A stretch of DNA of 36,186 nt from Caldifarciminota bacterium (GTDB lineage Bacteria; Hydrothermota; UBA3073): contig JAGMCL010000006.1 in NCBI GenBank assembly GCA_023129165.1, positions 1-36,186 on the forward strand, in the 5' to 3' direction. The position numbers were made by a program, and so were the translations under genes. How positions within the stretch are numbered: the stretch's first letter is position 1; every line of letters begins with the position of its first letter. Under the pieces are notes generated by a model. That model did no database searches, was not told the origin of the DNA, and saw only the letters and a program-made list of their open reading frames with translations. Positions 2,590 through 4,979 of the stretch are shown here, in pieces.

Positions 2590-2613
2590 GGGGCAGGTTG
2601 AAATCCCTGCCCT
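2590..2613 (+). other. GC-rich hairpin between genes
   Basis: GGGCAGG at 2591-2597 pairs with CCTGCCC at 2606-2612 around an 8-base loop, with a possible G-T pair closing the base. It lies in the 103-bp gap after the Gp3-like gene. The downstream bases are AT-rich but lack a clean T run, so this may be a weak terminator or an mRNA-stabilising end rather than a strong intrinsic terminator. Confidence 0.4.
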
Positions 2614-2671
2614 GCAATTATATCAATTTATATTTTATTTAAGTTAAAAAAATTAGGGGAGGTAAAAGTAA

Positions 2672-3070
2672 ATGACGATTTATAAGACTACATTCGAACA
2701 ATGTAAAAAACGAATAGGCAAGGGTGATGTTTGTGAAGGTTGCGGGGGAAAATTAGAGCCAATAGAGACTGTTGATAATTCGGATTGGCCTACTTTCTGG
2801 ATTGGTTGTAAGCATTGTATGTGTTTTAGAGGGGGAGTTAAAAAAGAATATTGGGAAATTGCTCGTCAATTAGTAAAAGAAGATGCAATTTTACCTTATT
2901 CCCATCTACAAAAATATGAATATGAAGATACACCAGAAAGATTAAATTATTATTTAGATACTCAAACTGCAGGGCTTTCTTGGAATGTAGGTTACATTCA
3001 TAGATTATTAAAAGAGAAATTTAAAGGAGATAACCAAAATGTCAATAATCTTAAAAGCCGTGAAGGCTAA
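2672..3070 (+). CDS. Zinc-ribbon hypothetical protein, 132 aa
   Basis: The N-terminal half holds two cysteine pairs, Cys21-Cys24 (CEGC) and Cys46-Cys49 (CKHC), spaced like a four-cysteine zinc ribbon, with an extra Cys51. The C-terminal half is probably helical and rich in Tyr and Lys. The start follows AGGGGAGG. The 3' end overlaps the next gene by 32 bp. I cannot assign a function; a nucleic-acid-binding or structural zinc role is possible. Confidence 0.6.
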   Translation: MTIYKTTFEQCKKRIGKGDVCEGCGGKLEPIETVDNSDWPTFWIGCKHCMCFRGGVKKEYWEIARQLVKEDAILPYSHLQKYEYEDTPERLNYYLDTQTAGLSWNVGYIHRLLKEKFKGDNQNVNNLKSREG

Positions 3071-3254
3071 ATTATTGGAAGAGCTTCGATTAGATATTTA
3101 TTTAAAAAATAGTTTCGGAGGCAATAACCACTACGAACAGGGTAGAGAAGATACAACGAGAAATCATTTAGTATTGCTTGGCTATGAAAAGGATAAGCTA
3201 ATGACGGTTAAGGGTGTAGATGGGTTGATAAAGGAGGCGGGACAAGAGATATGA
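3039..3254 (+). CDS. Hypothetical protein, 71 aa
   Basis: A 71-residue hydrophilic protein starting after AAAGGAGAT inside the end of the previous gene (32-bp overlap) and ending in an ATGA overlap with the homing endonuclease gene. No domain is recognised. The strong ribosome binding site argues for translation despite the long overlap. It may belong to the segment into which the homing endonuclease integrated. Confidence 0.5.
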   Translation: MSIILKAVKAKLLEELRLDIYLKNSFGGNNHYEQGREDTTRNHLVLLGYEKDKLMTVKGVDGLIKEAGQEI

Positions 3255-3736
3255 CAAATAAAATAGGTTGGTGTGATATGACGTGGAATGCCTATATTGC
3301 TGGTTTATTTGATGGTGAAGGGTCGGCAATTATATTAACCATAAAAAGACCTAATTTAAGGAGACCCTTTAGATTCAGACCAAAGATATTAATAGCTCAA
3401 AAAGACCGATATGTTCTTGATAAGATTGAAGAATATTTAAAAATAGGTAAGGTGGTTGAGGATAATTTTAATACTCATAAATATATTATTTTTAATCACG
3501 AGCATATCTTTAGATTTATAAAAAAGATACATCAATATTCTCTTATCAAAGAACAGCAATTGAGGTTGTTATTAAGATACATAAATATTGCTACCATAAA
3601 GGGTAATCGGAGTTATAACAGAAGAGAGCTTAACCACATCATCACCATAAGGGATAATATACATTTTCTGAATCAGACAACAAGAGAATTAAAATACGAT
3701 AGGCAAACTATATTGGAGGCGAATCTATATGAATAA
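3251..3736 (+). CDS. LAGLIDADG homing endonuclease with captured DUF5131 N-terminus
   Basis: Residues 15-25 (YIAGLFDGEGS) are a clear LAGLIDADG motif, whose acidic residue binds the catalytic metal. Only one such motif is seen in 161 residues, which fits a homodimeric enzyme cutting a near-palindromic site. The first 13 residues (MTNKIGWCDMTWN) are a diverged copy of the start of the DUF5131 protein encoded just downstream (MNKIGWCDFTFN), and the two genes overlap by 8 bp. The gene therefore appears to have inserted after codon 13 of a DUF5131 gene. It keeps that gene's ribosome site and start for its own expression, while a regenerated start serves the host gene. No intein or intron splice signals were seen. 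Confidence 0.8.
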   Translation: MTNKIGWCDMTWNAYIAGLFDGEGSAIILTIKRPNLRRPFRFRPKILIAQKDRYVLDKIEEYLKIGKVVEDNFNTHKYIIFNHEHIFRFIKKIHQYSLIKEQQLRLLLRYINIATIKGNRSYNRRELNHIITIRDNIHFLNQTTRELKYDRQTILEANLYE

Positions 3737-4478
3737 GATTGGCTGGTGTGACTTTACTTTTAATCCCGTTTGGGGTTGTAGAAATCATTGTGAGTATTGT
3801 TATGCTCGGATATTTGCTAATAGATTTTATAAGGGAACTGCTGAAAAGGAACATCGATATATACATAAATATAGAATTAATTCTTATATTGAGTGGAAAG
3901 TATTAGAGAATAGATTAAAGAATTTCAAACTTACTTTTCTACATTCTCATTTCGATAAGAAATTCCCGAAAAAACCGCAACGGATCTTCGTAGGCTCTAT
4001 GAGTGAAATTTATTATTGGAAAGATGAGTGGTTGGAAAAAGTATTGGAAAAGGTAAAAAGATATCCTCAACATACTTTTCAATTCTTAACTAAATTTCCC
4101 GAAGTATATTGCAAAGTATATGATTTTCCGAAAAACTGTTGGTTAGGGGTGACAATTACTAAAGATGATGATTTCGATAATGGAACTTATGATTTTTTGA
4201 GGAGTGACCTTAATCGTGACAATATAAAATATATTTCATTCGAGCCATTATTTGGTAGAATATTATCTTATAAATTAATAAAATATTTTGATTGGGTAAT
4301 CATAGGAGCAGAAACTGGCAATAGAAAAGATAAAGTTATTCCGAAGTTAGATTGGGTTTTAGAGATTATAAGATATTGCGAACATCATAAAATACCAGTC
4401 TATATTAAGGATAATTTAACAAAATATTATGCTGAGTGCAGAGGATATAAACAATTTCCAGAAAGGGTGAAGTTATGA
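3729..4478 (+). CDS. DUF5131 family (phage Gp37/Gp68-like) three-cysteine protein
   Basis: This 249-residue protein shows the DUF5131 landmarks in order: KIGWCDFTFNPVWGC near the start, a CxxxCxxC cluster (Cys17, Cys21, Cys24) like that of radical-SAM proteins, FVGSMSEIYYW, HTFQFLTKFP, GVTIT, ISFEPLFG, IIGAETG and YIKDNL. The cluster would bind an iron-sulfur cluster if the radical-SAM analogy holds; the substrate of the family is unknown to me. Family members commonly read TWNP where this one has TFNP. The gene starts behind GGAGGCG, inside the last codons of the homing endonuclease gene, and overlaps the next gene by ATGA. Confidence 0.8.
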   Translation: MNKIGWCDFTFNPVWGCRNHCEYCYARIFANRFYKGTAEKEHRYIHKYRINSYIEWKVLENRLKNFKLTFLHSHFDKKFPKKPQRIFVGSMSEIYYWKDEWLEKVLEKVKRYPQHTFQFLTKFPEVYCKVYDFPKNCWLGVTITKDDDFDNGTYDFLRSDLNRDNIKYISFEPLFGRILSYKLIKYFDWVIIGAETGNRKDKVIPKLDWVLEIIRYCEHHKIPVYIKDNLTKYYAECRGYKQFPERVKL

Positions 4479-4642
4479 AAATAATTGAGTCTACTATCGA
4501 GTCATTAATTATAGTCTTAGCATTCATATTAATTGTATTGCCTGAAATAGCTTACAGCTTAACGCTTAGAGGGCGTGACTGGGTTATAGATAGTATGGAG
4601 AGAACTATATTTTTTTTAAGGGGAACTATAAAAAAACTATAA
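4475..4642 (+). CDS. Small membrane protein, 55 aa
   Basis: This frame starts in an ATGA overlap with the DUF5131 stop and has GAAAGGGTG upstream. Residues about 8-28 form one long hydrophobic helix, followed by a basic, hydrophilic tail. It is a plausible single-pass membrane protein of unknown role. It could equally act as a holin-like or anchoring protein, but nothing in the sequence shows that. Confidence 0.5.
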   Translation: MKIIESTIESLIIVLAFILIVLPEIAYSLTLRGRDWVIDSMERTIFFLRGTIKKL

Positions 4643-4658
4643 AAAGGGGGGTGAAAGT

Positions 4659-4979
4659 ATGAGCTGGAGCGTTTATCTAACTATTAACACTGGCGCAGAA
4701 GAAAGAAAAGTTGTTGACATTGGTAATTATACTTACAATGTTTCGCCAATGTATATGAAGGCAATGGGGATTACAATATCGGATTTAGACGGTAAAAAAT
4801 GCTCTGAAGTTATTCCAATATTAAGAAAAGGTGTTTTACACATGACAGAAAATCCAAGGATACACAAGGCAATGAACCCGCCAAATGGCTGGGGTAAATA
4901 TGAAACCGCATTAGAATTTTTAGAGATGATTTATAAAGAATGCATAAATAATCCTAAATGTAAAATAGAAGTTTGTTAA
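4659..4979 (+). CDS. Conserved phage protein of unknown function, 106 aa
   Basis: The sequence has the layout of a small protein family I recall from many phages: an opening like WxVYxxINTG, then a VxDIGNYTYNVSPM segment, an ISDLDGKKC segment, and MNPPNGWGKYExAxxFLxxI near the end. The repeated appearance of that pattern in unrelated phages is from memory, and its function is not known to me. It starts behind AAAAAGGGGGGTG. It is cytosolic by prediction, with no signal peptide or membrane segment. Confidence 0.65.
   Translation: MSWSVYLTINTGAEERKVVDIGNYTYNVSPMYMKAMGITISDLDGKKCSEVIPILRKGVLHMTENPRIHKAMNPPNGWGKYETALEFLEMIYKECINNPKCKIEVC

Follow-up and report, generated by a model that had tools for sequence, protein, structure and literature searches.

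A LAGLIDADG homing endonuclease gene in the window (the whole 36,186-nt stretch of DNA analysed) lies inside the 5' end of a DUF5131 gene, where it is fused to the native start of that gene and is followed by a second, divergent DUF5131 start from which the complete target can be read. We consider it likely, at a probability of about 0.8, that the nuclease and the divergent start homed together into the 5' end of DUF5131 and that the start of the target was rebuilt in the process. Homing nucleases are usually thought to spare host genes by way of introns, inteins or intergenic sites. Judging from the sequences compared here, the 5' end of DUF5131 appears to have been invaded by unrelated nucleases at least six times, and another gene, in a cultured phage, once.

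Organization of the DUF5131 locus in the window

Genes for terminase, portal, major head protein and tape measure mark the window as a tailed-phage contig or prophage within a 3.0-Mb genome assembly. Two ORFs that overlap by 8 nt occupy the locus, 3251-3736 (161 aa, beginning MTNKIGWCDMTWNAYIAGLFDGEGS) and 3729-4478 (249 aa, beginning MNKIGWCDFTFNPVWGC). We named the captured DUF5131 start A, the second DUF5131 start A' and the remainder of DUF5131 B, and with the nuclease gene (HEG) the order of parts is A–HEG–A'–B. The features are as follows, with the basis of each in brackets.

3230..3237, +, Shine-Dalgarno-like AAAGGAGG before the nuclease start (sequence)
3251..3289, +, A: native DUF5131 5' end (MTNKIGWCDMTWN), now nuclease codons 1-13 (39/39 nt identity with the empty allele of viral contig L002)
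3251..3736, +, LAGLIDADG homing endonuclease ORF, 161 aa, single motif, I-CreI/I-MsoI type (Pfam PF00961, 3fd2, fold)
3290..3325, +, LAGLIDADG motif region AYIAGLFDGEGS, directly 3' of the junction (sequence)
3715..3719, +, GGAGG within the last nuclease codons, the Shine-Dalgarno of the regenerated DUF5131 start (Shine-Dalgarno survey)
3729..3736, +, 8-nt overlap, the TAA stop of the nuclease inside the DUF5131 start ATGAATAA (sequence, ORFs)
3729..3764, +, A': element-borne divergent DUF5131 5' end (MNKIGWCDFTFN) (24/33 nt identical to L002 over the common codons, where A has 33/33)
3765..4478, +, B: remaining DUF5131, continuous with A in the empty allele (21/21 of the first 21 nt and 39/41 of the first 41 nt identical to L002)
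3729..4478, +, intact DUF5131 target (PF07505, radical-SAM-like), 249 aa (Pfam E 6.9e-37)

The 13 codons of A are fused in frame to the LAGLIDADG protein, and after MNKIGWCDFTFN the DUF5131 protein continues with PVWGC. The first-pass annotation had noticed that NKIGWCD.T.N begins both proteins and that the LAGLIDADG motif begins where DUF5131 has PVWGC; both observations were confirmed, the two proteins having 9 of the 11 residues in common. Its proposals that the nuclease uses the captured start and that a new start keeps the target functional also agree with what we found, namely the in-frame fusion of A and an intact 249-aa DUF5131 ORF running from A', in which PF07505 scores 127.7 bits against a gathering cut-off of 28.9. 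At the DNA level A and A' differ at 9 of 33 nt and in 7 of 11 codons, five of the changes being synonymous and two residue-changing.

Elsewhere in the window, 1075-2568 encodes a Gp3-like recombination directionality factor (PF18897, E 9e-43). The position of a small membrane-protein gene (MKIIESTIESLIIVLAFILIVLPE / MKAIEYLLEKLVLILGFLLVILPE) indicates local gene shuffling at the locus: it is 3' of DUF5131 in the window (4476 onward) but precedes the HNH/DUF5131 pair in locus L010 (3611-3739).

The window nuclease

The first ORF is classified by sequence and modelled fold as a single-motif LAGLIDADG homing endonuclease, with cleavage predicted. LAGLIDADG_1 (PF00961) was matched from residue 16 (E 7e-10), the motif YIAGLFDGEGS has the acidic catalytic residue, and the best sequence match in the PDB was the I-MsoI-derived chain 3fd2 (E 3.8e-15). 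A Foldseek search with the nuclease model gave I-Vdi141I and I-CreI (prob 1.00, TM 0.66), the model having a mean pLDDT of 71.8 with low confidence at residues 1-23 (<50). Homologues of the endonuclease elsewhere that carry the same N-terminus, the case named in the first-pass annotation as speaking against capture, were sought and not found: the LAGLIDADG relatives from the same phylum align from residue 14-15 only, and the captured N-terminus is absent from them. A search of phage records for close relatives of the window nuclease found none. Neither an intron nor an intein was detected, as had been supposed from the letters: positions 2600-4700 gave no Rfam match at E up to 1, and LAGLIDADG_1 was the only Pfam domain in the nuclease ORF. 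The A|B junction was examined for a pseudo-palindrome that could serve a homodimer as target, without a significant result (shuffle p 0.43 and 0.91).

An empty site and the origin of A'

The DUF5131 5' end is uninterrupted in viral contig L002, which is an endonuclease-free allele of the kind that the first-pass annotation had proposed to look for, and its junction could be aligned. A is identical to L002 at 39/39 nt and the first 41 nt of B at 39/41, so that A and B of the window, when joined, match L002 at 78/80 nt across the junction, against 24/33 for A' (Fisher p 2e-4); because L002 gave the best match to A and to B among about 22 alleles, the window/L002 pair alone is moderate evidence. 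Since A and B match L002 and A' does not, the nuclease entered at the codon 12|13 boundary and A' came along with it. We read the ancestral allele as A-B, the occupied allele as A-HEG-A'-B, and A' as a foreign piece that arrived with the nuclease. The L002 DUF5131 protein is about 59% identical overall to that of the window, and L002 is therefore an empty site and not the immediate parent. An insertion inside the 5' end of DUF5131, after codon 12/13 in the window (the first-pass annotation had placed it after codon 13), is backed by L002, by the phage pair GAL1/ODay described below and by at least 11 further DUF5131 loci with other nucleases.

In the occupied locus L197, the region upstream of A (a methylase end and a ribosome-binding site) is homologous to the upstream regions of the empty loci L167 and L174 (81.6% over 125 nt for L167), which indicates that A is in its original place. 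The 9/33 divergence of A and A' falls inside the range among ordinary DUF5131 alleles (median 7, maximum 12 of 33), so A' is best read as an allele from another lineage; the same divergence does not demonstrate selection for resistance of A'. The first-pass annotation had concluded from the many third-position differences that the duplication is old. This is unsupported, as A is identical to an extant empty allele; nor can the differences be used to date the insertion, since the second copy derives from a different lineage. One uninterrupted DUF5131 gene, in L170 (= L046, about 2002), has a site, GACATCACATGGAATAGCGTTTGGGG, equal to the rebuilt site of the NUMOD4-HNH element of L159; speculatively, L170 may be a candidate resistant allele without the element.

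Recurrence at DUF5131

We searched DUF5131 in viral contigs and genomes and scanned 101 distinct N-termini for a second DUF5131-like start upstream. A second start was present 400-700 nt upstream in 12 of the 101, and a nuclease lay between the two starts in 12/12. These 12 occupied loci hold at least six nuclease lineages, one of them antisense:

LAGLIDADG: window
HNH_3 with CACGCG-type motif: L010 (= L184), L185
NUMOD4-HNH_3: L031 (= L197), L047 (= L159), L257
HNH_3 with C-terminal helix-turn-helix region: L228, L296
Cys-rich HNH-like type: L259, L323 (family match of L259 weak, best nuclease PHROG E 6e-4)
HNH PF01844: L254
NUMOD3-HNH, opposite strand: L317

A 13th occupied locus, L163, was found by hand and has a five-codon remnant, MKNKI, followed by an HNH nuclease of the L185 type. 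The nucleases are inserted within the motif KIxWxDxTWNPV or ahead of it, at junctions between codons 5 and 16. A DUF5131 query blind to nucleases returned 46 loci, among which five distinct ones were occupied (L159, L163, L184, L185/186, L197); the remaining DUF5131 searches favoured occupied loci in part. A nuclease is only rarely the gene immediately upstream of an empty DUF5131 locus (L182, by sequence). When neighbouring ORFs were compared across 2.08 Mb of fetched records, and tandem paralogues and low-complexity matches were set aside, the common N-termini with high scores were nuclease/DUF5131 pairs. Signs of movement were found as well: the NUMOD4-HNH proteins of L031 and L047 share 85% identity although they come from two phages and their surroundings differ, and L184 and L163, from different phages, have a near-identical HNH 3' end and the A' start in common.

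A search of viral contigs for IEWTDxTWN followed by a residue other than proline gave 46 matches, with no nuclease read in that frame; L228, one of these 46 contigs, later proved occupied. The W-to-F change in TFNPVWGC was considered as a mark of occupied loci and rejected, as it occurs in empty alleles too.

Three further arrangements were observed at DUF5131 starts. In L318 (13343 onward) a DUF5131 N-terminus (MSENTKIEWCDH) is followed by an endonuclease VII domain and a DUF5131-like C-terminus, RTASRLIDGRTHDEFP; here the nuclease seems to have replaced the DUF5131 body, with no rebuilt gene behind it. In L317 (7397-8110) the antisense NUMOD3-HNH gene lies between two DUF5131 starts, the first of which (MSENTKIEWCDH) has exactly the same DNA sequence as the start in L318. 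On the minus strand of L306 (about 4292-4560) a short ORF without a nuclease match separates two DUF5131 starts, and this may be a decayed or a non-nuclease insertion.

A second gene: DUF3310 in Gordonia phage GAL1

An HNH gene interrupts the 5' end of DUF3310 in Gordonia phage GAL1 (KR053194): it is preceded by VNHPKHYTDHP and followed by a complete DUF3310 gene with a regenerated start, VNKPQHYRSHASGVEC. The counterpart gene of phage ODay is uninterrupted.

L340 (KR053194.1 43457-46177), locus 1059-1946: GAL1 HNH/DUF3310 locus

Compared with ODay, A of GAL1 is identical at 32/35, B at 57/60 and A' at 23/35 (p 2e-4). By these alignments GAL1/ODay is an independent second pair with the same signature as window/L002. 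The GAL1 deposit annotates one long hypothetical protein here, in which the nuclease is hidden, and this is a warning for the annotation of similar genes. At 16 other HNH loci sampled from phage isolates, start duplication was found in 0/16 (the scores there were non-coding or low-complexity matches), so the phenomenon is uncommon overall and, in this sample, concentrated at DUF5131. The HNH genes before DNA ligase in Klebsiella phages have no start in common with the ligase gene.

Probable rescue of the target gene

In the same-strand loci the nuclease stop abuts the new DUF5131 start or overlaps it by about 1-22 nt, and a core Shine-Dalgarno lies 4-18 nt before the A' start in 11/12 of them, against a background of 24/264 (9%) at internal start-like triplets of the same nuclease genes. 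The sole exception is L185 (1667-1690), where the rebuilt start is without a clear Shine-Dalgarno or ATG (GTG or ATT candidate). DUF5131 is open in all occupied loci, contig ends aside. At most loci A reads in frame into the nuclease; at L323 A serves as a leader of 16 codons and the nuclease begins at an overlapping start of its own in another frame, in L317 the nuclease is antisense and A is not its N-terminus, and in GAL1 the nuclease starts on its own in another frame. Capture of the start is therefore common but optional, and the constant feature across the loci is the rebuilt target start.

Proposed mechanism and alternative explanations

We propose that the mobile unit would be the HEG plus A' (about 475 nt: the nuclease body and the second, divergent DUF5131 start). 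The nuclease would recognise the conserved DUF5131 5' end and cut empty alleles, and double-strand-break repair from an element-bearing genome would place HEG and A' between A and B. The ribosome-binding site and start codon that had served the target, with its first 12-13 codons (A), would then drive the nuclease as an in-frame fusion, while the target would receive from the 3' end of the element a Shine-Dalgarno, a start codon and a substitute for its first 12 codons (A') overlapping the nuclease stop. DUF5131 would still be made from A', both proteins presumably being translated. The differences in A' would block recutting of the rebuilt site and would limit deletion by recombination between A and A'.

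A stub of this kind could also be left by tandem DUF5131 paralogues, if the body of the first copy were replaced by a nuclease or deleted and its 5' end remained before a complete copy. Body replacement is real in L318, and L306 has a non-nuclease insert between two starts. However, paralogues would not give a match of A and B to one empty allele across the junction, with A' outside it, which is what both testable pairs have; no 3' remnant of a first copy was present in the occupied loci examined, and all 12 scanned second starts come with a nuclease, so that we regard this origin as improbable. Nearly the same low probability, if anything a little lower, attaches to a free-standing intergenic HEG onto which gene conversion had copied the DUF5131 start, in which case A would be the copy and A'-B native. 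L182 (by sequence) and Microcystis phage yong2 do have, immediately before DUF5131, a nuclease that carries no captured start, but in both testable pairs it is A that is native-like and A' that is divergent, and the native upstream region precedes A in L197.

The seamless insertion between A and B would also suit synthesis of DUF5131 beginning at the first start, with the nuclease skipped by RNA or protein splicing or by ribosomal bypass (intron, intein or gene-60-type). We hold this very improbable: beside the lack of an Rfam match reported above, a Shine-Dalgarno and a start codon precede A', A' encodes the same conserved residues as A, and the nuclease ORF has its own stop. As to chance or convergence, a similar KIGW stretch does precede the motif in LAGLIDADG relatives, but seven residues closer to it, and unrelated nucleases also have captured starts; identity to a DUF5131 gene at 39/39 nt refutes a chance origin of the common N-terminus, to which we give almost no weight.

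Homing of the nuclease with A' into the DUF5131 5' end, followed by use of the rebuilt start, is thus the reading that we prefer. We further think it reasonably probable, with less confidence than for the window itself, that start regeneration is general for homing nucleases of any family, given a divergent resistant start copy and a conserved target about 5-16 codons from the start, and that at least six nuclease lineages have independently invaded the DUF5131 5' end, which would make it a hot spot. Such elements would explain the puzzling short duplicated gene starts of phage genomes, and GAL1 and ODay offer a cultured test case for cleavage, co-conversion and resistance of the rebuilt start.

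Comparison with known systems

Searches of the open literature found no report of a 5' version of replacement-end homing and no paper on DUF5131 together with a homing endonuclease. Among phage systems, the free-standing T4 HEGs (seg and mob genes) lie between genes and cleave at distant sites (PMC2988022). They resemble the elements described here as phage nuclease genes without intron or intein, but their cleavage site is far from the insertion and they carry no copy of the target end, whereas the window nuclease is inside the 5' end of its target, with A|B seamless in L002. Mitochondrial introns of Tremella fuciformis show host-gene duplication (PMC7315562); these insertions likewise carry a copy of the adjacent part of the host gene and some do not act as introns, but the copy resembles the following exon and the context is that of introns.

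Closer parallels exist at the 3' ends of genes. Fungal mitochondrial mobile ORFs with carboxy-terminal duplication occur in Allomyces atp6 and in Glomus atp6, atp9, cox2 and nad3, in which the remnant of the native end agrees with the sister species, and the copy brought in by the element differs mostly at synonymous sites (PMC3630166). As in our loci, a nuclease (LAGLIDADG or GIY-YIG in the mobile ORFs) is inserted with a replacement gene end, and the native remnant matches the empty allele while the carried copy diverges, as in window/L002 and GAL1/ODay. The mobile ORFs replace the 3' end, with the nuclease behind the gene and in the mitochondrion, whereas in the phage elements the 5' end with its start codon is replaced and the nuclease stands in front and usually takes the native start. 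The yeast WHO elements at FBA1 combine a nuclease with a resistant allele of the 3' gene end; allelic differences give the resistance, many diverse WHO genes hit FBA1, fragments remain as scars, and cleavage of FBA1 was tested (PMC7282813). A nuclease with a gene-end copy, and diverse nucleases at one gene, are common to WHO and to the DUF5131 loci, but WHO elements act at the 3' end, express the nuclease separately and have assayed cleavage, while the loci here concern the 5' end and cleavage is inferred from sequence. The first-pass annotation had called the arrangement a third way to avoid harming a host gene, which is right in kind but not wholly new, given the 3' precedents (PMC3630166, PMC7282813). 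A 5' version in phages, with unrelated nucleases at one conserved motif, would make the principle general. By analogy, the elements described here may be regarded as the mobile ORF/WHO principle mirrored to the 5' end, in phages, a 5' form that would be new beside known 3' precedents.
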